A stretch of 50,440 bases of DNA from an uncultured Polaribacter sp. (lineage in GTDB: Bacteria > Bacteroidota > Bacteroidia > Flavobacteriales > Flavobacteriaceae): positions 1-50,440 of the forward strand of contig CAJWAC010000009.1 in the NCBI GenBank assembly GCA_913020555.1. The letters run 5' to 3'. A model generated the notes under the pieces. The model did no database searches and was not told where the DNA came from. It was given only the letters and a program-made list of their open reading frames with translations. Each line of letters opens with the position of its first letter. Position 1 is the stretch's first letter. Of the stretch, positions 4,699 through 21,600 are shown one piece after another. Made by a program: the position numbers and the translations under genes.

Positions 4699-5568
4699 TT
4701 AAAAGGTTCTTGAAATATTAAATCCAAAATGGATGTCGCCTCCAAAAAAATCTCCTGTATTTTCTGCAATAAAACTTTTTTCAATCATTGTTATTGCATT
4801 TGACAATATCAATTGAAAAACATGCCCACCGGTTTCAATATCTACACCAAAAGCTAAAGAATTTTTAGCATCAATGGAAGTGGACTTATTAAAAGCCCAA
4901 TAATATTCGCTATTAAAAGAAACTCTTTTACTTAATTTAATTCTACTTCCAAAACCTAAGGCATATATATTTTGAGGATCTTCTGCTATTCTTACCGTAT
5001 TTCTATGAATAAAAGTTGGTGTTAATTGCATAGAAAATGACGAACTGAATTTTCTTGCTAATAAAACCTGACCAACATAAGAGAGATTTTCAGAAAAAGT
5101 TCTTTCTACAATTGGAAACTCCTCATCTTGTGTTTTTGCAGCAATACTTCCAAAAATAGAAATTGCAAAAGGAAACACGCTTTGACCTTTTCTTTGTTTT
5201 ACAAGACTATATTTAAAAAAAGAATCAAAAGTTTTTTCGAAACTACTTCTTCCTAAACCCAAGGTTAAATTATCTGTTAAACCATATTCCAATGCAAATC
5301 GAATATTAGATTGATCTAAACCAAACAACTCCTTAAAGCCTAAATTAATGGCCCCAAATCTATGAGAAATAATAAATTCTAATTCCTCATTTTTTCTATT
5401 CTCTATAGAATGACCATTTAAAATTCGAGTTCCTTTAAAAGTAGCCGTTACAATATTTTCTGTTTTATTTTCTGGAGTTTCATCATCTAAGATATCTAAC
5501 AAATCATTTTGACTATAAAATAGAGTATGTATAGAAATCAAAACAATGGATAATAGTAGTTTTTTCAT
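4699..5568 (-). CDS. DUF5777 family beta-barrel protein, left cassette copy
   Basis: A 289-residue protein with a signal peptide ending near FYSQ (about residue 20) and alternating hydrophobic strands ending in a terminal aromatic residue (NISRTF), as in outer-membrane barrels. It resembles the product at 9282-10193 along its length: compare ATFKGTRILNGHSIENRK here with ATFKTTRIGLGHSIEVRK there, and the shared DN-TLGLG and QRKG/QKRG segments. I assign it to DUF5777; no function is known to me. It is the last gene of a leftward cassette (cytochrome c-like protein, OB-fold, YceI-like, DUF5777) with an 11-base gap to the previous gene. Confidence 0.8.
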   Translation of the reverse strand: MKKLLLSIVLISIHTLFYSQNDLLDILDDETPENKTENIVTATFKGTRILNGHSIENRKNEELEFIISHRFGAINLGFKELFGLDQSNIRFALEYGLTDNLTLGLGRSSFEKTFDSFFKYSLVKQRKGQSVFPFAISIFGSIAAKTQDEEFPIVERTFSENLSYVGQVLLARKFSSSFSMQLTPTFIHRNTVRIAEDPQNIYALGFGSRIKLSKRVSFNSEYYWAFNKSTSIDAKNSLAFGVDIETGGHVFQLILSNAITMIEKSFIAENTGDFFGGDIHFGFNISRTF

Positions 5569-5579
5569 AATTTTGATTG

Positions 5580-6125
5580 TTATTTGTGATATGGTTTATG
5601 ATTAAAATCAAAAGTAACTTTTATCCTTTTCGCTATTTTTTTAGAAACAATAGCTGGTATTGATATATTAAAGTCATCAATTTCAATAATAAAATTACCA
5701 TCAACTAAAATTGAATCATCTGTTTTAGTGAAATTCGCATCAATTACAATTTCTTTTGTGATTCCGTGAATGGTGATATTACCTTTTACTTTTTGCTTAC
5801 TCACAGTTTCATTAATAGCTTCAAAATTTAAAATATCACCCGCAAATGTTGCTTTTGGATATTTATCAGATTCCACGTAATTCTCATTAAAATGCTCTTG
5901 CATTAAAGCTTTTTCAAATAGAAAGGATTTCATTAAAATTTGAATGGCAATTTTCCCTTTATCAGCATCTATAATACTTAAAACTTGATTATTATCTGCA
6001 GTAATGTCTTCCATTGGTGCTTTAGAGTAAAAATTAATAGCACCACTTTTTGTTAAATATCTGTTTTGACCATTTATAAACATTGCAAAAAGTAAACAGA
6101 ATAGTATGGTAAAGATTGATTTCAT
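5580..6125 (-). CDS. YceI family protein, left cassette copy
   Basis: A 181-residue secreted protein: signal peptide of about 19 residues, then a YceI-like lipocalin-type barrel. The family pattern is seen in HFNENYVESDKYPKATF (the E-xx-KYP-x-F motif) and in KVKGNITIHGITKEIV. Family members such as TT1927b bind a polyisoprenoid chain, so a lipid or quinone-like ligand in the periplasm is plausible but not shown. It is a paralogue of the product of 8744-9292, and both copies sit between an OB-fold gene and a DUF5777 gene, which implies joint work with the barrel protein. Confidence 0.85.
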   Translation of the reverse strand: MKSIFTILFCLLFAMFINGQNRYLTKSGAINFYSKAPMEDITADNNQVLSIIDADKGKIAIQILMKSFLFEKALMQEHFNENYVESDKYPKATFAGDILNFEAINETVSKQKVKGNITIHGITKEIVIDANFTKTDDSILVDGNFIIEIDDFNISIPAIVSKKIAKRIKVTFDFNHKPYHK

Positions 6126-6143
6126 ATTTGATTGATTTTTGAA

Positions 6144-6560
6144 TTAATTTATAATTTCTGATTTCACTAAAATAACATCCATTAAAAATCCTGTACAAAT
6201 TCCTTTAATAGAAACAATTTCTCCTATTTTAAATGTACTCATCTTTTTTGTAGCTTCTGTAGATAAATGACACAAGATGTTTCCAAAATTATCATTTGTT
6301 TTTAAAGTGATGACTCCTTTTTCTCTTTCAATTTTTGTTTCTGAAATCTCACCTTTCACTAATATAACTTTTTCTAAATATTTTTTATTTGCTGCCGTTT
6401 CATCCTTAGAAAATTCATCTAAAATTTTATTTGCAGAAATACTAATTTCCGTTGATGATTTTAAAACATCAATATGAGGTTTATTGTACATCTTATACCC
6501 AAAAAATCCTCCAAAAGTTCCTAAAATTATAAATACTAAGATTATTTTTTTTCTATTCAT
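6144..6560 (-). CDS. Membrane-anchored OB-fold (tRNA_anti-like) protein, left cassette copy
   Basis: A 138-residue protein with one N-terminal membrane segment (about 5-22) and an OB-like domain facing the periplasm. The end of the domain, VSIKGICTGFLMDVILV, closely matches ITVKGICKGFLKDVILL in the paralogue at 8314-8751. I place it in the 'tRNA_anti-like' group of exported OB-fold proteins; despite the name, export argues against a role with tRNA. Ligand and function are unknown. It lies 11 bases after the cytochrome c-like gene and 18 before the YceI gene in one transcription unit. Confidence 0.72.
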   Translation of the reverse strand: MNRKKIILVFIILGTFGGFFGYKMYNKPHIDVLKSSTEISISANKILDEFSKDETAANKKYLEKVILVKGEISETKIEREKGVITLKTNDNFGNILCHLSTEATKKMSTFKIGEIVSIKGICTGFLMDVILVKSEIIN

Positions 6561-6571
6561 AATTTCTAAAT

Positions 6572-6916
6572 TTAATTATTTAAAGCTCCGGCATCTACCC
6601 AACAGCTTATGGCTGTAATTTCATCATTTGTTAAACTGCCTCCAATTGGCATTTCTCTTAATACAACTTCTGATTTTACTCTAAGTGCATTTGCACTAAC
6701 TGCATTATAAGTTTCTAAATTTGGAGATTGTCCACCTTCTAAACTATGACAACTAATACAATTATTATCGATAATTGGTTTTACATGCATAGAGAATGTA
6801 ATAGCTGCGCAAGGATCAATTTCTTCTATCTCATCTACATTTGATAAACAAGAGGACATGGCAACTGGTATCAAAAAGAGTAAAAAAGTATTTTCAAATT
6901 TTTGGATAGATTTCAT
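6572..6916 (-). CDS. Cytochrome c-like lipoprotein
   Basis: A 114-residue protein with a signal sequence and lipobox (PVAMSSC, Cys about 22). The mature part is a small cytochrome c domain: the heme-binding motif CISCH lies at about 53-57 and a possible axial methionine in REMPIGG near 88. The ending DEITAISCWVDAGALNN matches the last helix of 'VKPIIDNNC' type cytochromes. It would be attached to a membrane on the periplasmic side and carry one heme. It heads the left cassette and has no counterpart in the right cassette, so it is what distinguishes the two. Confidence 0.85.
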   Translation of the reverse strand: MKSIQKFENTFLLFLIPVAMSSCLSNVDEIEEIDPCAAITFSMHVKPIIDNNCISCHSLEGGQSPNLETYNAVSANALRVKSEVVLREMPIGGSLTNDEITAISCWVDAGALNN

Positions 6917-6983
6917 TATAATTGCTTTTAAATTACTCTAAAATAAGTAAAATTAAACAGTTTACAAACTAATAAGCTTTATG

Positions 6984-7020
6984 AAAGGGAAAGTAAAAAT
7001 GCTAAAAGGGAAAAAAATAG
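6984..7020 (-). promoter_or_regulatory. Putative LytTR operator upstream of the cytochrome c-like gene
   Basis: The 9-mer AAAGGGAAA (+ strand) occurs at 6984-6992 and again at 7005-7013, exactly 21 bases apart with a 12-base spacer. LytTR regulators such as AgrA classically bind pairs of 9-bp direct repeats with this geometry, two helical turns apart. The distal repeat is part of CTATTTTTTTCCCTTT (- strand, 7005-7020), which matches 15 of 16 bases upstream of the right cassette. It lies about 70-105 bases before the cytochrome start and just after the LytTR regulator gene. The repeat is seen; binding is inferred. Confidence 0.5.
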
Positions 7021-7061
7021 ACTGAAAACAAAGTGGATTTTCGTAAAATCTAAAATAAATA

Positions 7062-8183
7062 TTACATATTAAGCCATTGCTTAAATTCTGCTGCCTTATT
7101 CTTACTAATAATAATTTCTTCAGATGTTTTAGACTGTAAAACTATTTTTAATTGGCTATTGCCATATTTTATAATTTTATCAATAGCCGTGATACTGATA
7201 ATAAATTGCCTGTTAGCCCTAAAAAATAAAGTTGAATTTAAATTGGTGTACATATCATCTAAACTCATATTTGTTGTAGACCTTTTACCATCAAAACAAA
7301 CTACATAAGTTATGGTATTTTCCGTATGTACAAATGCAATATCTTTAATTGCAATTGGTACTAACTCATTTCTTACATAAGTTAAAATACGCTCCTTTTC
7401 TTTGTCCTTTTCTTTGTCTTTTTCTTTATCTTTTTCTTTACTAGAGTTAATTTCTGATGAGGATACAATTGGGCTTAAAGTCACTTTTTCTTTATAAGAA
7501 ACTAAATCTGTATTTAATTTAGATAGGTTTACAACTTCTGATGTTAAAGAAGAATTTTTTAACTCCAATTGTTTTTCATAAGCACTTCCAATAATTCTTA
7601 CAGCAACAAAAGAGAGTACAATCACCAAAATCCCCATTATTAAAAAAATTAAATAGAAATTACTTTTTAAAGCACTCATTTGATTTTTAATTCTATTCAC
7701 ATTAACGTTGGCAGCAACTATTAAATCTGACTTTTTTACAGGAGAAATATGAATAATTTCATAAGTTGAGACATTTTTGTTACGAATTAATAAATCGTAC
7801 AAATTTTCTGAATTATTTTTTTCCTTTAAGGAAGTTAATAACACCTCATCAGATTTTACAATTTGCCCCAACTTAGTTTTATCAGGATTCGCAACCTCTT
7901 TACCACTCCAATTAAACACACTAATAAACCAACTATCTGAATTAGAATCTTCAATAATCTTTTGAATATTGATTAGTATATCCTCTTTTTGAATTCCTGA
8001 TAATAATTGAAAATCAATAAGTTTTGCTACTTCTTTAGCTTCTCTTTTACTAGACTCTACTTGAACTTCTATAAGTTGATTGGCACTCACTTTTATAAAG
8101 TATTTTGATGCAATTAAAGCAACTAAAAGAAAAATAGCTGCAATAGATAAGAATGTTAAAAAATAAAGCTTGTCTTTTTTCAT
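7062..8183 (-). CDS. Membrane-bound sensor with LytTR DNA-binding domain
   Basis: A 373-residue one-component regulator. Membrane helices at about 7-29 and 176-198 enclose an extracytoplasmic sensor region of some 145 residues that resembles a Cache-type domain. A short coiled-coil stretch (about 200-225) and a lysine/glutamate repeat (249-264) lead to a C-terminal LytTR domain (about 266-373; FFRANRQFIISITAIDKI is typical). It should sense a signal outside the inner membrane and regulate transcription directly. It lies between the two paralogous cassettes, on the same strand as the left one and divergent from the right one, so both are its likely targets. No kinase or receiver domain is present. 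Confidence 0.85.
   Translation of the reverse strand: MKKDKLYFLTFLSIAAIFLLVALIASKYFIKVSANQLIEVQVESSKREAKEVAKLIDFQLLSGIQKEDILINIQKIIEDSNSDSWFISVFNWSGKEVANPDKTKLGQIVKSDEVLLTSLKEKNNSENLYDLLIRNKNVSTYEIIHISPVKKSDLIVAANVNVNRIKNQMSALKSNFYLIFLIMGILVIVLSFVAVRIIGSAYEKQLELKNSSLTSEVVNLSKLNTDLVSYKEKVTLSPIVSSSEINSSKEKDKEKDKEKDKEKERILTYVRNELVPIAIKDIAFVHTENTITYVVCFDGKRSTTNMSLDDMYTNLNSTLFFRANRQFIISITAIDKIIKYGNSQLKIVLQSKTSEEIIISKNKAAEFKQWLNM
7392..7439 (-). repeat. In-frame 12-base repeat encoding (KEKD)n in the LytTR regulator
   Basis: About four tandem 12-base units encode KEKD-KEKD-KEKD-KEKE at residues 249-264, between the coiled coil and the LytTR domain. Since units are multiples of three, slippage would change linker length without breaking the frame. 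The repeat is seen directly; length variation between strains is only a possibility. Confidence 0.8.
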
Positions 8184-8249
8184 TTGGTTATTAAAAAGTG
8201 AAATATACTACTATTCTTATCCTTTTGACAAAAAATATTCCTCTTTAAA

Positions 8250-8265
8250 CTATTTTTTCCCCTTT
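8250..8265 (+). promoter_or_regulatory. Shared motif upstream of the right cassette, possible LytTR site
   Basis: CTATTTTTTCCCCTTT at 8250-8265 differs at one base from the 16-mer upstream of the left cassette (- strand, 7005-7020) and has the same orientation relative to the genes it precedes. A weaker partner, TTCCTCTTT at 8238-8246, lies 19 rather than 21 bases from the matching TTCCCCTTT. The site lies in the 130-base region between the divergent LytTR gene (start 8183) and the OB-fold gene (start 8314), so it could also serve autoregulation. Confidence 0.45.
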
Positions 8266-8313
8266 CCGTAAGTTTCATTTTTAAAAAACAAGTTTTTTCA
8301 TTTTCTTTACTTT

Positions 8314-8751
8314 ATGAAAACTAAAAACAAGTTTTTTTTTATTACCGTGCTATTCTTGATTACGATTAATAGTTACTTTTATTTGAAACCTTACTTTTTA
8401 ACACCAGTAAATAATGTAATAAATGTTGATGCAGAACATCGTTTGACAGCAAATGAACTGGTAAGTAATTTTAATAATGATGAAGCAATATCTAAAAAAC
8501 GATATTCAGGAAAAGTGGTTGAAATTTCTGGCATTATCAAAGAAATTAATTTTTTAAATGATAGAACCACAATAATTTTAAAAAGTGATTCCGAAAATTT
8601 TGGTGTAATTTGCGATATAAATCCGAACCAAAAAGAAAACATAAATCAATTGAAACAAAATCAAAACATCACTGTAAAAGGTATTTGCAAGGGCTTTTTA
8701 AAGGATGTAATTTTATTAAATTGTAATTTCACCTTATCAACAGATGAATAA
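8314..8751 (+). CDS. Membrane-anchored OB-fold (tRNA_anti-like) protein, right cassette copy
   Basis: A 145-residue paralogue of the product at 6144-6560: an N-terminal membrane segment (about 7-25), then an exported OB-like domain ending in ITVKGICKGFLKDVILL. Both copies also share the LxxNFNNDEA / LDEFSKDETA region near residues 50-60. It is the first gene of the right cassette and overlaps the next gene by 8 bases, while the left cassette has small gaps instead. The ATG at 8314 is the only reasonable start. Function unknown. Confidence 0.72.
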   Translation: MKTKNKFFFITVLFLITINSYFYLKPYFLTPVNNVINVDAEHRLTANELVSNFNNDEAISKKRYSGKVVEISGIIKEINFLNDRTTIILKSDSENFGVICDINPNQKENINQLKQNQNITVKGICKGFLKDVILLNCNFTLSTDE

Positions 8752-9292
8752 ATTTTTACCACTCTTTATTTTAGTTTTATTTTTTGTAGATTTTAAGAGC
8801 AAACAAAGTCAATTTATTGCTAGACAGGGTCAAATAACTTTCTTTTCATACACTTCTGTTGAAAATATTGAAGCTAAAAACAATCAAGTTTTGAGTATTT
8901 TAGATGTAGAAAAACAAGAAATTGCTATTAGCATGTTAATGCGAGCCTTTATATTTAAAAAGGATTTAATGTACGAACATTTTAATGAAAGTTATATTGA
9001 ATCTGATATTTATCCTAAGGCAAGTTTTGAGGGAAAAATCATTGATTTTGATTCAAAAGAGATAGATACTCAGACAAAAATTATTAGAGGTAAACTCAGT
9101 ATTCACGGAATTACAAAAGAAATAGACATTAAAGCATCAATAAATAATGAGGATGGAAATTATGTGATTTCTGGTGAATTTGAAGTTTCAGTAAAAGATT
9201 TTCAAATTAAAATTCCACCTATTTTATCCAGTAATATCGCCAAAACTATTTCTGTGAAATTTCTATTCCAATATCAACCCTATGAAGACTAA
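8744..9292 (+). CDS. YceI family protein, right cassette copy
   Basis: A 182-residue YceI-like protein with a short hydrophobic N-terminal export signal (about 1-18). The family pattern is seen in HFNESYIESDIYPKASF and IRGKLSIHGITKEIDI, nearly the same as in the left copy (5580-6125), and both start their mature part with similar FIARQGQITFFS / YLTKSGAINFYS sequences. Family knowledge suggests binding of an isoprenoid-like lipid in the periplasm. Its start overlaps the end of the OB-fold gene and its end overlaps the DUF5777 start by 11 bases, indicating strict co-expression. Confidence 0.85.
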   Translation: MNKFLPLFILVLFFVDFKSKQSQFIARQGQITFFSYTSVENIEAKNNQVLSILDVEKQEIAISMLMRAFIFKKDLMYEHFNESYIESDIYPKASFEGKIIDFDSKEIDTQTKIIRGKLSIHGITKEIDIKASINNEDGNYVISGEFEVSVKDFQIKIPPILSSNIAKTISVKFLFQYQPYED

Positions 9293-10193
9293 AATTAAAT
9301 CTCTACTTTTTATTTCATTTTTCACGGTAGCAACCTCTTTTTTAAATGCGCAAAGCTTATTAAGTAAATTGGATAGTGAATTCCCGGACAAACCAGTTTA
9401 CGAAATCGCTACTTTTAAAACCACTAGAATTGGCCTAGGACATTCTATTGAAGTACGTAAAAAGGGAGCGCTAGAAATTTCTTTATACAATAGGTATTGG
9501 AATATTCCAGATTTTAAAGGACAACGTTTTCTGGCGGACGTGGTAAGCACACGCTATGGTTTAGATTATGCTTTTTCAGACAATTTTACTTTGGGTTTAG
9601 GGTATACTAATCATGACAAAATTTTCGATGGATTTATGAAGTATAAGCTTTTTAAACAGAAAAGAGGCTCAAAAAAAACACCTTTTAGTATCACTTTATT
9701 ACAAACCATTTCTCAAAGAAAATCAGAAAATACTACTGGTGATGTATATAAAGAAACTACATCTTCAATCAATAAATATGCGTTTACGAGTCAAATTCTA
9801 ATAGCCAGAAAAATTAATACAGAATTATCTTTACAAGTAGCTCCAACATTTATTCATAGAGAAAAAGATCCGTTAAAAGAGAATCCAAATAATCAATTTG
9901 CAATAGCCTTTGGTGGCCGGCATAAAATTGGCAAACATGCTTCTGTTGTATCAGAATATTTTTACGTGGCAAATCCTCTGAAATCAATTGAAACCTTTAA
10001 TACATTTATGGTAGGTGTAAATTGGGAATTGAGCCATTTACTTTTACAATTTCATATGACTAATGCGCGAAATTTTGTAGAAGACACATTTATTGCACAA
10101 ACTACTAATAACTTTAATGCAAAAGATGGCAATTTTCATTTTGGATTTAATGCAACTTGGGTTTTACAAACCAAAAAGAAAAAATTAGATTAA
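9282..10193 (+). CDS. DUF5777 family beta-barrel protein, right cassette copy
   Basis: A 303-residue exported protein, paralogous to 4699-5568. It has a signal peptide ending at about FLNAQ (residue 24), the shared HSIEVRKKGALE and DNFTLGLGY segments, and alternating strands suggesting an outer-membrane barrel. It ends in a lysine-rich tail (QTKKKKLD) rather than in the aromatic residue seen at the end of the left copy, so the barrel strand that BAM would recognise is followed by a short extension. Last gene of the right cassette, followed by a bidirectional terminator. Confidence 0.8.
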   Translation: MKTKIKSLLFISFFTVATSFLNAQSLLSKLDSEFPDKPVYEIATFKTTRIGLGHSIEVRKKGALEISLYNRYWNIPDFKGQRFLADVVSTRYGLDYAFSDNFTLGLGYTNHDKIFDGFMKYKLFKQKRGSKKTPFSITLLQTISQRKSENTTGDVYKETTSSINKYAFTSQILIARKINTELSLQVAPTFIHREKDPLKENPNNQFAIAFGGRHKIGKHASVVSEYFYVANPLKSIETFNTFMVGVNWELSHLLLQFHMTNARNFVEDTFIAQTTNNFNAKDGNFHFGFNATWVLQTKKKKLD

Positions 10194-15848: not shown

Positions 15849-18035
15849 ATGTTTATAAAATACAAATACATAAAACTATTTATTTTCTGCATTTTATGCT
15901 CAAATACCATTTTTAGTCAGCATTCTATTGCAAGAGAATGGAATGAACAATTATTACAAGCCATTAGAAAAGATTTTTCTCGACCAACAGTACACGCAAG
16001 AAATTTATTTCATACTTCAGTTTTAATGTATGATTCTTGGGCCATTTTTGATAACAATACACAAACTTTATTTCTAGGAAACACCTTAGGTGATTTTACT
16101 ACCAGCTATACTCCTATTTCAATACCAACAGATAAAAATGAAGCTACAAAAGAAATTTTAAGTTATGCAGTTTACAGACTCTTAAAGCATCGTTTTAAAA
16201 ATTCACCAAATGCGGAAGAAACTCTAAATACTTTTGATTCTTTTTTTAGTTCTATTGGATATGATATTAATTTCATATCTGTAGATTATAGTTCTGGCTC
16301 TTATGCAGCCTTGGGTAATTATATGGCAGAACAAATGATTCAATTTGGTTTACAAGATGGTGCAAATGAAGAAAATGATTACAAGAATAGATATTATGAA
16401 CCAACAAATCCAGTATTAGACTTAGAATTTTACAGAGATAACTCCTTTATAAACCCAAATAAATGGCAACCTTTATCTTTTAACACTTTTATCGATCAAA
16501 GTGGGAATCTTATTCAAGGAAATACTCCTGAATTCTTAAGTCCTGAATGGGGTGAAGTCACTCCTTTTTCTTTAAAAGACACTGATTTAGAAATTTTAAA
16601 TAATGGCTTTGATTCTTATGTTTACAATAACCCTGGACATCCTGTATATATTCAAGATTCTAATGAAAACGGAATAGACGATCCATATAAATGGAATTTT
16701 GCCTTAGTAATTTCTTGGTCTGCTCATTTAGATCCTACTGATGAGAATTTAATAAATATTTCTCCAAATTCTATTGGTAATTTAGATATGGAAAAATATC
16801 CGACTACTTTTGAAGAGTATATAAATTTTTATGATTTCACTCAGGGAGGAGATTTAGGTACTGGACATTCGTTAAACCCTAAAACGCAGCAACCATATGA
16901 AGACAACATTGTAAATAGAGGAGATTACACAAGAGTTTTAGCTGAATTTTGGGCAGATGGTCCAGATTCCGAAACACCTCCTGGACATTGGTTTACAATT
17001 TTAAATTATGTGAGCGATCATCCATTGGCAAAAAAAACATTTGGTGAAAACTCTTTAGAACTGTCTAATTTAGAATGGGATGTAAAAAGTTACCTTACAC
17101 TTAGTGGGGCCATGCATGATGTTGCTATTAATATTTGGGGTATAAAAGGTTACTATGATTACGTAAGACCAATATCTGCAATTAGGTATATGGCTTCAAA
17201 AGGTCAAAGTACAGATAAAAATTTAGCAAATTACGACCCACATGGATTACCATTAATTGAAGGTTTAATTGAAGTAATTGAGGAAGGTGATGATTTAATT
17301 GGATTCAATAATAATTTAATCGGTGAAATTAAAATAAAATCTTGGTTAGGTCACGATGTAGTATCTGACGTAAATACTGATATTGCAAAAGTAGGTTGGA
17401 TGTTAGGCACAAAATGGTGGCCATACCAAAGGCCGTCTTTCGTTTCACCTCCTTTTGCCGGATACTTATCAGGACACTCTACATTTTCTAGCGCAGCATC
17501 TACAATCTTAACTTTAATTACTAATGATGTCTTCTTTCCTGGTGGAATTGGAACTTTTGATATAGAGAAAAATGAATTTCTCGCTTTTGAATTAGGTCCG
17601 TCTCAAAGTTTTCAGTTAGAGTGGGCAACTTACAAAGACGCATCAGATCAAACTAGTTTATCTAGAATTTGGGGCGGAATTCATCCTCCAATAGATGATA
17701 TTAGAGGAAGAATAATTGGTGATAAAATTGGAAAAGAAGCTTTCAATTATGCAAATGAATTATTCATTGGAACACCATTAAACGGTGACAATAATTCTAT
17801 TCATCATTTTGAAATTTATCCAAATCCTATTTCAGATCAAATTACAATTAAAACCAATTACAATAAAACATTTAAAATATCTATTTATGACATTCTTGGT
17901 AAACACATATTTACAAATCCAAGTTTATCTGCAAATCATAAAATGAATATTCCAAATCTAACTTCGGGCATTTATTTTATCAAGATTATGAGTCAAGAAG
18001 ATAAAATATTACACATCAAAAAAATAGTGAAATAA
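15849..18035 (+). CDS. Vanadium-dependent haloperoxidase/PAP2-like protein with T9SS sorting domain
   Basis: A 728-residue exported protein. The signal peptide ends near TIFSQ (about residue 23). The catalytic core carries the three motifs of the vanadium haloperoxidase / type 2 acid phosphatase fold: KxxxxxxRP as KGYYDYVRP (433-441), SGHS (541-544), and SRxxxGxHxxxD as SRIWGGIHPPIDD (605-617). It could bind vanadate and oxidise halides, or hydrolyse phosphate esters; the sequence alone does not decide. The last 75 residues (IYPNPISD ... GIYFIKI) are a type A sorting domain for the T9SS, so the protein is probably secreted or displayed on the surface. No neighbour clearly belongs with it. Confidence 0.88.
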   Translation: MFIKYKYIKLFIFCILCSNTIFSQHSIAREWNEQLLQAIRKDFSRPTVHARNLFHTSVLMYDSWAIFDNNTQTLFLGNTLGDFTTSYTPISIPTDKNEATKEILSYAVYRLLKHRFKNSPNAEETLNTFDSFFSSIGYDINFISVDYSSGSYAALGNYMAEQMIQFGLQDGANEENDYKNRYYEPTNPVLDLEFYRDNSFINPNKWQPLSFNTFIDQSGNLIQGNTPEFLSPEWGEVTPFSLKDTDLEILNNGFDSYVYNNPGHPVYIQDSNENGIDDPYKWNFALVISWSAHLDPTDENLINISPNSIGNLDMEKYPTTFEEYINFYDFTQGGDLGTGHSLNPKTQQPYEDNIVNRGDYTRVLAEFWADGPDSETPPGHWFTILNYVSDHPLAKKTFGENSLELSNLEWDVKSYLTLSGAMHDVAINIWGIKGYYDYVRPISAIRYMASKGQSTDKNLANYDPHGLPLIEGLIEVIEEGDDLIGFNNNLIGEIKIKSWLGHDVVSDVNTDIAKVGWMLGTKWWPYQRPSFVSPPFAGYLSGHSTFSSAASTILTLITNDVFFPGGIGTFDIEKNEFLAFELGPSQSFQLEWATYKDASDQTSLSRIWGGIHPPIDDIRGRIIGDKIGKEAFNYANELFIGTPLNGDNNSIHHFEIYPNPISDQITIKTNYNKTFKISIYDILGKHIFTNPSLSANHKMNIPNLTSGIYFIKIMSQEDKILHIKKIVK

Positions 18036-18633: not shown

Positions 18634-21600
18634 ATGAAACAACTAAGCTTATTCTTCACCCTAATTTCTATTTCCATTTTTGGTCAAACAAGTCCAAAAT
18701 GGATGAGACACTCTTCAATTTCTCCTGATGGAACTCAAATTGCATTCACATATAAAGGAGATTTGTATAAAGTAAATGCTAAAGGAGGAAATGCTCAACA
18801 ACTTACTTATCACAATGCACACGATTATAAAGCTGTTTGGAATAAAGATGGTTCTAAAATTGCTTTTGCATCTAATAGATATGGTAATTTTGATATTTTT
18901 GTAATGCCTTCAAAAGGTGGGCAAGCAACAAGATTAACTTACCATTCAAATGATGAAACTCCATATTCTTTTTCAGCGAATGACAAAGAAATAGTTTTTG
19001 GCGCCTTAAGGCAAGATGCTGTAAACCACAGACAACACCCACACAGATCTCAATCAGAATTGTATAGTGTTCCTGTAAATACTGGAAGGGTCACACAGTT
19101 ATTAACCATTCCAGCAGAGGATATTCAATTTTCTGAAAGTGGTGAAAAAATGATTTATCATGATAAAAAAGGTGGTGAAAACGAATGGAGAAAACATCAT
19201 ACTTCATCAATCACTAGAGATATTTGGATGTATGATACCAAAACAAAAGTACATAAAATGATAACTTCTCATAATGCTGAAGACAGACATCCTATTTTTA
19301 CAAAGGATGAAAAGAGCATTTACTTTTTAAGTGAAAGAAGTGGTTCTTTTAATGTATATAAATTATCCTTAGAAAACACGAATCAACTTGAACAATTAAC
19401 ATCTTTCAGCTTGCACCCTATTCGTTTTTTAAGTTATGGAAATGGTATCCTATCATTTGGTTATGATGGAGAAATCTATACAATGAAAGAAAATGAAAAA
19501 CCAAAAAAAGTAAACATTAATATCATTACTCAGGATAAATCAAATACAGATAAATTTATTTCTGTAAATGGTGGTATTAGCGAAATGTCTGTTTCACCAA
19601 ACGGAAAAGAAATTGCATTTATAGCTAGAGGTGAAGTATTTGTGACTTCTGTGGATAAATCTTTTACAAAGAGATTGACAAAAACTCCAGAAAACGAACG
19701 TTTTGTGACTTGGGGACCAGAAGGAAAATCTGTAGTTTATAGCAGCGAAAGAAATGGAAAATGGAGTGTTTTTAAAACGGAAAAAATTAGAAAAGAAGAA
19801 CCTTTTTTTTATGCTTCAACATTATTAAAAGAAGAAACTTTAATAGACAATAATCTCGATAATTATTTAGCTCAGTATTCACCTGATGGCAAGAAAATAG
19901 CTTTTGTAGAGGGCAGAAGAACTTTAAAAATCAAAGATTTAAAAACAAAAAAAGAAGTTACTTTATTAACACCAAAAGATTTATTCCACATGAGAGATGG
20001 AGATAAGTATTTTACTTGGAGTCCAGATAGCAAATGGATTTTAGTAGATTGGAGTAAAACACTAAGTAATAGTGAAGTTTTACTAATGGCTGCTGATGGC
20101 TCTAAAAGAGTAAATTTAAATGAAAGTGGTTATTACGATTCTAGTCCGAAATGGGTAAATGGAGGAAAACAAATGCTATGGTTTAGCAACAGAAATGGTT
20201 TAAAATCTTATGCTACTAGTGGTCGTTCTCAAAGTGATGTTTATAGTATGTTTTTTACACAAGATGCTTGGGATGAATTTAATTTAAGTGATGAAGATTA
20301 CAAATTACTGCAAGCTGTAAAAGAAGAAGAAAAGAAGCGCAAAGAGAAAGAAATTAAAGACAAAAAAAGTGAAAAAGATACTAAAGTAAAAGATAAAAAA
20401 GCCTCCGATAAAAAGAAAGACGATAAGAAAAAGGAAACAAAACCACTTACTTTTGACTGGGATAATATGAAAGACAGAACTAAAAGATTAACCATTCATT
20501 CCTCAAGATTAGGAGATGCTGTACTTTCTAAAAAAGGAGATTTCCTTTATTATTTAGCAAGTTTTGAAGGGCGTTCTAATCTATGGAGCACAAATTTAAG
20601 AACTAGAGAAACCAAAATGTTAATGAAATTAAATGTTGGTTTTGGAAGCTTACAATGGGATAAAGAAATGAAAAACTTGTATTTGTTAAGTGGAGGAAGA
20701 ATTTCTAAATTAAATCCATCCGCAAAAAAACGAGAAGGCGTAAAAATAAAAGGAGAAATAAAATTAGACGAATACGCAGAAAGAAAAGCTATGTTTGATC
20801 ATGTTTGGATTCGAACAAATGCCGTTTTTTATGAGCCAACTTTTCACGGCGTAAACTGGAAAAAAATGAAAAAGGAATACCAAAAGTATTTACCATACAT
20901 TTCAAACGGATTTGAATTTTCTGAAATGTTATCAGAATTATTGGGTGAATTAAATGTTTCGCATTCTGGAGCTGGTTACAGGGGCAACAATGTTTCTAAT
21001 GCAGATGCCACTGCTTCTTTAGGAATTTTTATGGATTATAATTACAAAGATGATGGAATTAAAATTGACGAAATTATAAAAGGAGGCCCTTTAGACAAAG
21101 CTAAATTTAAATTAGCAGCAGGAATGATAATCAAAAAAATAGATGGTATTGCAATTGATAAAAATGAAGACATTGCTAAATATTTTAATAGAAAATCTGG
21201 TAAATTTATGTTGTTAGATATTCTGGACCCTAAAACTAAAAAGTTACAAACTATTACAGTAAAACCAATTTCTTTAGGCCAAGAATATAACTTATTGTAC
21301 AAAAGATGGGTGAAAATTAATGAAAAAGAAGTTACAGATTTAAGCAAAGGACAATTAGGTTATGTGCATATTCCAGGTATGGGAGATGGTCCTTACAGAA
21401 GTATTTATCAAGATATGATGGGAAAGTACTTAGATAAAAAAGGAGTTATCATTGATACTCGCTTTAATGGTGGTGGCGATTTAGTTGCAGATTTAGCAAT
21501 GTTTTTTACTGGAGTTCCTTTTATAACTTATGCAACAGAAGCCAAAGTTGTTGGAGGTGAACCTACGAGTAGATGGACAAAACCAACCTTATCAATTTTT

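Follow-up and report, generated by a model that had tools for sequence, protein, structure and literature searches.

Gene content of the locus

The DNA analysed here, referred to below as the window, is a stretch of 50,440 nucleotides from an uncultured Polaribacter sp. (assembly GCA_913020555.1, contig CAJWAC010000009.1), and the system in question is a group of eight genes in which two paralogous cassettes, each encoding an OB-fold protein, a YceI-family protein and a DUF5777 barrel, face outward from the gene of a membrane-anchored LytTR regulator. The left cassette lies on the minus strand and begins with the gene of a monoheme cytochrome c-like lipoprotein with CISCH and MPIGG motifs (6572-6916). 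It continues with the genes of an OB-fold protein (6144-6560; Pfam tRNA_anti-like, 7e-25), for which the hydrophobic N-terminus predicts a membrane anchor, of a secreted YceI-family protein (5580-6125; Pfam 2e-17, 64.6 bits against a curated cut-off of 23.7), whose fold is, by family, an isoprenoid-binding one, and of a predicted 12-stranded outer-membrane barrel with a signal peptide and a conserved N-terminal segment (4699-5568; Pfam DUF5777, PF19089, 1e-94, 316.9 bits against a curated cut-off of 23.1, whole profile). The right cassette, on the plus strand, encodes an OB-fold protein (8314-8751; tRNA_anti-like, 9e-27), a YceI-family protein (8744-9292; 7e-13, 49.7 bits against 23.7) and a DUF5777 barrel (9282-10193; 4e-69, 233.1 bits against 23.1, whole profile), the YceI gene overlapping the OB gene by 8 bp and the barrel gene overlapping the YceI gene by 11 bp. 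Between the two, the gene of a one-component regulator (7062-8183, minus strand) is codirectional with the left cassette and divergent from the right one, with gaps of 145 bp to the cytochrome gene and of 130 bp to the OB gene of the right cassette; its product is predicted to consist of a transmembrane helix, a Cache-like extracytoplasmic sensor, a second transmembrane helix, a coiled coil and a LytTR domain. Each of the two intergenic regions contains a predicted LytTR operator of two direct boxes, at 6982-7015 (minus strand, boxes 21 bp apart) for the left cassette and at 8235-8266 (plus strand, 19 bp apart) for the right one, and a promoter-like TTTG-N19-TAnTTTA element lies at 6939-6968 on the minus strand, 22 bp before the start codon of the cytochrome gene.

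A preliminary description, made from the sequence, had given this order and these strands, had placed the LytTR regulator between the cassettes and the cytochrome in the left one only, and had regarded all three gene pairs as paralogous. The eight open reading frames (ORFs) and the Pfam assignments agree with it, and so do the BLASTP comparisons of left with right proteins, with 37% identity for the barrels (289 columns, 2e-59), 45% for the YceI proteins (173 columns, 4e-55) and 32% for the OB proteins (129 columns, 1e-19). The two barrels are the only DUF5777 matches in the genome assembly to which the window belongs (2.59 Mb, 76.5% complete). The closest named loci are from Polaribacter, with barrel identities of up to 78%.

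Distribution and history of the cassettes

We started from 27 named loci in which the left barrel has a relative. The full layout, with all eight genes intact, is found in 13 of them, 11 titled Polaribacter and two titled with a higher taxon only; among the incomplete ones, the left OB gene is missing from L008, and L005 runs into a contig end. Cultured species with this locus include Polaribacter glomeratus and P. vadi. In Polaribacter sp. MSW5 (L026), the left DUF5777 gene is split into two overlapping ORFs (8001-8869). More widely, DUF5777 is present in 108 of the 199 Flavobacteriaceae genomes searched and in 115 of the 296 genomes of a phylum sample. We fetched 100 further loci, all centred on DUF5777 genes, 60 from the family (L030-L089, from the upper part of the family list) and 40 from outside it (L090-L129, chosen by hand from the phylum list), and, owing to how they were picked, shares among fetched loci should not be read as random-sample estimates. 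Within 2.5 kb of the DUF5777 gene, the 60 family loci encode a YceI protein in 59 cases, an OB protein in 59 and a c-type cytochrome in 55, and the corresponding numbers for outside loci are 26, 5 and 32, out of the 39 that were usable, no DUF5777 ORF having been called in L118. Since the OB gene is rare outside the family and the other two are common there, it looks as if cytochrome, YceI protein and barrel form an old core to which the OB protein was mostly added within the family.

By gene order, we distinguish type I cassettes (cytochrome-OB-YceI-barrel, as on the left), type II (OB-YceI-barrel, as on the right), type I2 (cytochrome-YceI-OB-barrel) and type III (OB-x-barrel-cytochrome-YceI). 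With the raw labels, type II required three changes on the barrel tree, and six loci (L008, L032, L039, L059, L060, L084) were re-labelled after that tree, so that the re-labelling bears on the barrel tree but not on those of YceI and OB. In the barrel, YceI and OB trees alike, type II then forms one exact clade of 33 rows, with support in the Shimodaira-Hasegawa-like approximate likelihood ratio test (SH-aLRT) of 100, 100 and 98, respectively. Likewise, types I and II together are split exactly from types I2 and III (SH-aLRT 94, 97 and 100), leaving out three rows of other type for the barrel, one such row and six unassigned ones for YceI, and one unassigned row for OB. As the same clade and the same split recur in all three trees, the cassettes were duplicated as whole units, before the genera split and before Polaribacter arose. 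A recent duplication inside Polaribacter is ruled out, given that the left and the right clade each span many genera.

In 15 Polaribacter-group loci, left and right barrels diverge in step (Mantel r 0.37, p 0.005), and 30 of the 33 type II cassettes, or 31 if the split gene of L026 is counted, have a type I or I2 partner cassette; L088 and L089 have none. In twelve other genera, with one fetched locus each, the partner is of type I2 instead of type I. The concordance of the three trees bears out the idea that the pairs are sister cassettes; the proposed two versions are indeed long diverged, and are better described as two old subfamilies, of which type II is paired with type I2 in those twelve genera. 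All 33 type II cassettes, and none of the 26 type III ones, have a regulator gene in their locus.

The regulator and its predicted operator

The regulator matches Pfam LytTR at 4e-18 (66 bits against a cut-off of 22.6). With a profile of the whole protein (E at most 1e-40), we found 36 relatives in 35 of the 199 family genomes, and all 35 genomes have DUF5777, compared with 108 of 199 overall. What is more, when coordinates were compared by hand, 32 of the 36 are at most 5 kb from a DUF5777 gene, the remaining four being 21 kb away on contig 48 of G063, or on other contigs of the fragmented assemblies G034, G191 and G192. On this genomic evidence, the regulator is dedicated to DUF5777 cassettes, and the linkage that the preliminary description had made a test of its proposal is the usual state. 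Its AlphaFold2 (AF2) model, with a mean predicted local distance difference test score (pLDDT) of 74, begins with a long helix, followed by a PAS-like domain on the outside, another transmembrane helix with coiled coil, and the LytTR domain. The last of these (residues about 262-373) matches known LytTR structures with VIA Z values of 10-17 (best 3d6w, Z 17.3 over 109 residues). The outside domain, for which Pfam gave no Cache match, resembles Cache/PDC sensors (Mlp24, PctA, TlpB, CitA, DcuS; VIA Z about 8-11), and this modelled likeness suggests that a small ligand is sensed. In the window, the linker between coiled coil and LytTR domain carries a KEKDKEKDKEKDKEKE run (about 7390-7440), encoded by a short DNA repeat, that is missing from 19 aligned relatives.

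In 17 Polaribacter-group loci, both intergenic regions contain two TTTTTCCyTTTwA-like boxes, arranged as direct repeats at a spacing of 19-21 bp and with equal orientation towards each cassette. A two-box position weight matrix (PWM), trained on 16 of these loci with the window left out, had its best two places in all of the window at the left operator (score 30.6) and the right one (27.4), and in 2000 single-base shuffles of each intergenic region these scores were never reached. A third place, at 19750-19785 (23.6), lies inside coding sequence and was set aside. Two strict site patterns gave one match each in the window's own genome, one per operator, and zero control matches.

The wider scan covered 111 loci outside the training set and the window itself, at a score of at least 17, a threshold set after the scores of the window scan were seen. 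A site upstream of a module gene was present in 23 of the 28 loci with a LytTR match and in none of the 84 without one or, counted per cassette, in 24 of 44 with a regulator and 0 of 83 without. Such upstream sites number 32, and in 20 cases the distance to the start codon is 71-85 bp; the genes that follow are cytochrome genes, secreted-protein genes and, twice, OB genes. Matches elsewhere numbered 13 in 0.47 Mb with a regulator, strong sites in L031, L038, L059 and L060 among them, compared with 5 in 1.21 Mb without. All 11 type I or I2 cassettes tested in regulator-free loci are without a site (best score 7.7). The most telling comparison is the loss of the site with the loss of the regulator inside Polaribacter. 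Namely, four of the 11, close type I cassettes in the Polaribacter loci L012, L015, L017 and L027, have site scores of 2.0, -8.9, -0.6 and -10.2, and the 6.6, 6.7, 1.7 and 1.6 kb of sequence preceding their cytochrome genes contain no regulator. In three more (L011, L021, L022), both are missing, with contig ends nearby. The four loci also lack the right cassette and have an ORF of 488 residues directly upstream of the cytochrome gene; in L012 (3999-6409 region) its product is an AAA ATPase, and a VWA-domain protein is encoded before it.

In other words, the predicted operator is a direct repeat whose occurrence appears tied to that of the regulator, and control of both cassettes by one switch is well supported at this level, with binding of the regulator to the boxes as the presumed link. 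Between the boxes and the left cytochrome gene, 7 of 17 loci have a promoter-like element of this kind, against a mean of 0.13 in shuffled sequence; before the OB gene, it occurs in only one of 17. Because the boxes lie upstream of this element, the regulator is probably an activator.

Proteins of the module and their partners

The AF2 model of the left barrel (pLDDT 80.8) has 12 strands, with low confidence at residues 31-47; where this segment ends, residues 43-58 are nearly invariant. Its structural matches are KdgM, FapF, NanC and a COG4313 channel, at Z about 18 (FapF VIA Z 18.7, rmsd 3.6 over 209 aligned residues; KdgM likewise Z 18.7), and a likeness of this kind in a modelled fold would fit a channel, an exporter or a scaffold alike. 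A profile of both YceI sets matched YceI chains of the PDB at 5e-5. PDB sequence searches with the barrel (none below E 0.1), the OB protein, the cytochrome and a PF03640 protein gave nothing useful. The cytochrome has one heme motif in its 114 residues, with a downstream methionine in MPIGG, and in the fetched loci 119 of 135 family members keep CxxCH or CxxxCH and 122 keep MP..G.

In many genera, the operator precedes a gene for a secreted protein, which itself lies 5' of the cytochrome gene or the type II OB gene. These partners are interchangeable, and include proteins with PF03640 repeats, with lamin-tail (LTD) repeats (L030, L038, L082) and a CHRD lipoprotein (L032); the PF03640 group has 22 members, nine of them checked by Pfam and the rest placed by BLAST clustering. 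In 11 type II operons, the PF03640 repeats are followed by a C-terminal copper-like domain, and in L019, one of the 22 by clustering, such a domain follows CHRD domains, identified by Pfam, in a protein encoded upstream of the type II OB gene. Altogether, 25 copper-type ORFs with C-x(n)-H-x(n)-M were found in the fetched loci, all within 1.2 kb of DUF5777 in loci that extend several kb beyond, and none in the 40 loci from outside the family. By locus type, they occur in 14 of the 33 loci that have type II, in 10 of the 31 that have III or IIIb, in one of two with I2 alone and in none of 19 with I alone. Thirteen are of plastocyanin/amicyanin type, and all six of these that were scanned pass the Pfam Copper-bind cut-off; in the 10 type III and IIIb loci, a protein of this type is encoded at position x, between OB and barrel gene, and those of L049, L053 and L077 combine a score above the cut-off with a tail for the type IX secretion system (T9SS), L053 matching amicyanin at 2e-7. 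The other 12 are the related C-terminal domains of type II operons, which match the Pfam-type copper set with a profile probability of 95.8% and aligned ligand motifs, and are probable cupredoxins as judged by profile comparison. Further heme proteins occur as well, namely a Haem_bd and cytochrome P460 protein in L034 and an ethylbenzene-dehydrogenase-type heme domain in L104.

Several other neighbours deserve mention. L006 (10580-11347) and L029 (10925-11710) encode T9SS-tailed Reeler-domain proteins about 2 kb 3' of the left cassette, and in the same region L009 and L014 have, within 0.8 kb, a copper-binding T9SS protein. The window itself encodes, at 15849-18035, a secreted protein of 728 residues with a C-terminal T9SS-like sorting tail (match at 17796-18032), which we take to resemble a PAP2/haloperoxidase-type protein. 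In L007, the left barrel gene is followed by the gene of a 4HBT-type thioesterase (9016-9441, about 140 codons), which has relatives in a cluster of 15 loci, mostly of the Polaribacter group; the window is without it, and different 4HBT proteins are encoded near cassettes in L045 (5879-6415) and L013 (9912-10466). Around type III cassettes, L044 (566-4543) has TonB-plug, FecR and sigma-factor genes, and L045 (2185-4007) has those of a FecCD permease and an ABC ATPase. Finally, in L111 (2542-9069), outside the family, a YceI-barrel-YceI-cytochrome group lies beside a propeller-type histidine kinase and a LytTR protein.

Discussion

The gene sets, the co-evolution of the cassettes, the regulator's dedicated linkage and the conserved site that both cassettes have all come from comparing sequences, and they lend support, through the trees and the linkage, to the earlier suggestion of an envelope system in which a lipocalin-like YceI protein, a heme protein and an outer-membrane barrel act under the sensor encoded between them. 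As to what this system does, we tentatively favour, at somewhat less than an even chance, a one-component Cache-LytTR switch that controls an envelope electron- or quinone-transfer module in both cassettes. Namely, the membrane regulator, with its Cache-like domain outside and LytTR domain inside, would bind the paired boxes that precede the cytochrome gene on the left and the OB gene on the right, thereby switching on both cassettes together, probably as an activator. The YceI protein would act as a periplasmic shuttle for an isoprenoid quinone, which in this group means menaquinone, or for a lipid of similar kind, and the monoheme cytochrome c lipoprotein would take electrons from, or give them to, the quinone so carried. 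The anchored OB protein would assist, the DUF5777 barrel would link the module to the cell surface, and in relatives a secreted blue-copper, PF03640, LTD or CHRD protein would be the outside partner, the type II cassette being an old paralogous version under the common switch. Regulator-site binding, activation, the quinone cargo, and the flow of electrons and its direction are all steps that we infer. A redox function nevertheless seems the most likely one, given how often members of a quinone-binding family meet heme and copper-type proteins in the module.

A number of observations weigh against this reading. The best c-type models score the cytochrome below their cut-offs (Pfam 21.7 bits against 27; NCBIfam 22.2 against 118), and type II cassettes come without a cytochrome. 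In the copper-like domains of type II operons, the best PDB match is azurin at 0.018, with the ligand motif outside the alignment, and Pfam did not recognise the domain in the PF03640 proteins of L076 and L080 or in L019. Only three of 16 Polaribacter-group loci with type II have a copper-type ORF, and the window's own genome has no PF00127 match in its assembly, which is 76.5% complete, so that the copper partner informs on the module and not on this genome. What is more, the outside partner is frequently a non-redox domain (LTD, CHRD, Reeler), which would fit display or adhesion equally well. As for the regulation, to the late choice of threshold one must add that in the same scan L088 and L111 have a regulator match yet no site, and that the sites of L031, L059 and L060 map to no called module gene; in these three and in L038, where the sites are strong, genes were probably missed or misplaced in the ORF calls. 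The two-component system of L111 is perhaps an alternative regulation of the same module. The strict patterns matched 40 times in 58 genus genomes, against 38 for the reversed control, and 19 times in 199 family genomes, against 19; a large regulon is thus unsupported by pattern, and members elsewhere cannot be claimed. Finally, type III neighbours form clusters, recurring in several genera, that we identified from one scanned member each, among them a FecCD permease (7 loci), an ABC ATPase (12), FecR (14) and a TonB-plug protein (13), along with an ECF-type sigma factor and a 4HBT thioesterase. These neighbours may reflect plain synteny among related genera, or iron, heme or metal uptake, and for this reason we have shifted some weight to uptake.

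Experimental precedent for the pairing of YceI with a heme protein comes from Burkholderia, where cytochrome b561 and a YceI lipocalin form the LcoA-BcnA(-PsrA) system, for which detoxification of lipid peroxyls is proposed (PMC9113575). The likeness consists in a YceI lipocalin encoded beside an envelope heme protein, and a second lipocalin gene, bcnB, is mentioned there too (PMC9113575). In contrast, the heme protein here is a c-type lipoprotein and not a b561, OB protein and DUF5777 barrel are constant in the family, the module has its own membrane LytTR regulator with a predicted operator, and relatives add copper-type or repeat proteins. We therefore do not class the system of the window with LcoA-BcnA, which it resembles in the pairing of YceI and heme protein only. 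The pairing does invite the alternative of an envelope antioxidant, in which YceI presents a quinol or lipid antioxidant to lipid peroxyl radicals, the cytochrome c re-reduces it, and the sensor detects envelope or outside stress. According to the same account, bcnA and lcoA mutants have raised membrane lipid peroxidation (PMC9113575), and Polaribacter sp. MSW5, the source of L026, is described as strictly aerobic (PMC11392042). Still, Pfam finds no cytochrome b561 among the eight proteins of the window, the Cache-like domain resembles sensors of small ligands, and the barrel and the secreted repeat or copper proteins are foreign to the Burkholderia system as its abstract presents it (PMC9113575). 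All in all, we consider this function rather unlikely.

Uptake, which we hold to be unlikely, would make the barrel a channel, YceI a periplasmic carrier and the Cache-like domain the sensor of the compound, the cargo being hydrophobic or, in type III, heme or a metal. The 12-stranded barrel is indeed similar in fold to the KdgM and NanC sugar porins and the COG4313 channel, the sensor suits such a role, YceI tunnels are described as binding long hydrophobic chains (PMC9113575), and the transporter, FecR and TonB-plug clusters speak for it as well. However, these clusters are found at type III loci, which are regulator-free, and none were seen at the window or at type I and II cassettes, where neighbours were annotated non-exhaustively; uptake also leaves the near-constant cytochrome and the copper proteins unexplained.

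With the KdgM and NanC porins, the COG4313 channel and FapF, the DUF5777 model shares 12 strands, at a sequence identity of only 6-12%. FapF is a trimeric 12-stranded barrel that exports FapC-type repeats, and its place among the best structural matches, together with the interchangeable secreted-protein gene under the operator in relatives, speaks for export or display, in which the barrel, helped by OB and YceI proteins, would pass or display the secreted partner (PF03640, LTD, CHRD or cupredoxin) at the cell surface, much as FapF does with amyloid subunits, with the cytochrome serving folding or modification only, but KdgM and NanC match equally well, the four type III partners scanned (L044, L049, L053, L077) carry T9SS tails and hence have an exporter of their own, and the cassettes of the window have no secreted-partner gene and keep the rest; we hold this to be the least likely of the functions considered.

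Returning to the electron- or quinone-transfer module, its parts differ from known counterparts in several respects. The regulator has the DNA-binding fold of LytTR regulators such as AgrA and ComE (3d6w), and AgrA-type sites are also direct repeat pairs about two helix turns apart, as in the predicted operator, with a different box sequence. Unlike AgrA and ComE, however, the protein of the window has no receiver domain, is membrane-anchored and carries a Cache-like sensor outside. Porin-cytochrome conduits of the MtrCAB type place a multiheme cytochrome inside a large barrel, whereas the window has the single heme motif of a small lipoprotein and a 12-strand barrel. The type III partner of L053 keeps the C-x(n)-H-x(n)-M ligands of amicyanin and plastocyanin; the copper partners are found in relatives only, and the scanned type III ones have T9SS tails. 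One can go further and imagine a general Bacteroidota electron route to the surface, running from menaquinone on YceI through the cytochrome c lipoprotein and the barrel to an exchangeable terminus (blue-copper protein, tyrosine-rich PF03640 repeats, LTD or CHRD), which is a speculative extension and, in our view, rather improbable. If true, this small-carrier route would dispense with multiheme-cytochrome conduits, and the window would represent a signal-controlled double version of it under one Cache-LytTR switch.

The preliminary description knew of no account of this arrangement, and our search of the open-licence literature (DUF5777, and YceI with LytTR, cytochrome or cupredoxin) is in keeping with this, having found no published description of the module; by title, the same literature yielded nothing functional on Lipoprotein_15 or PF03640/COG4315. 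The system is thus widespread, testable and apparently undescribed, its function being a matter of inference. DUF5777, PF12869 and PF03640, hitherto without an assigned function, are now joined in one module with YceI proteins, heme proteins and copper-type proteins, and the dedicated regulator with its predicted operator makes both function and signal accessible to experiment. If the redox function is the true one, the module would constitute a new link of the quinone pool to the outer membrane in common marine bacteria.

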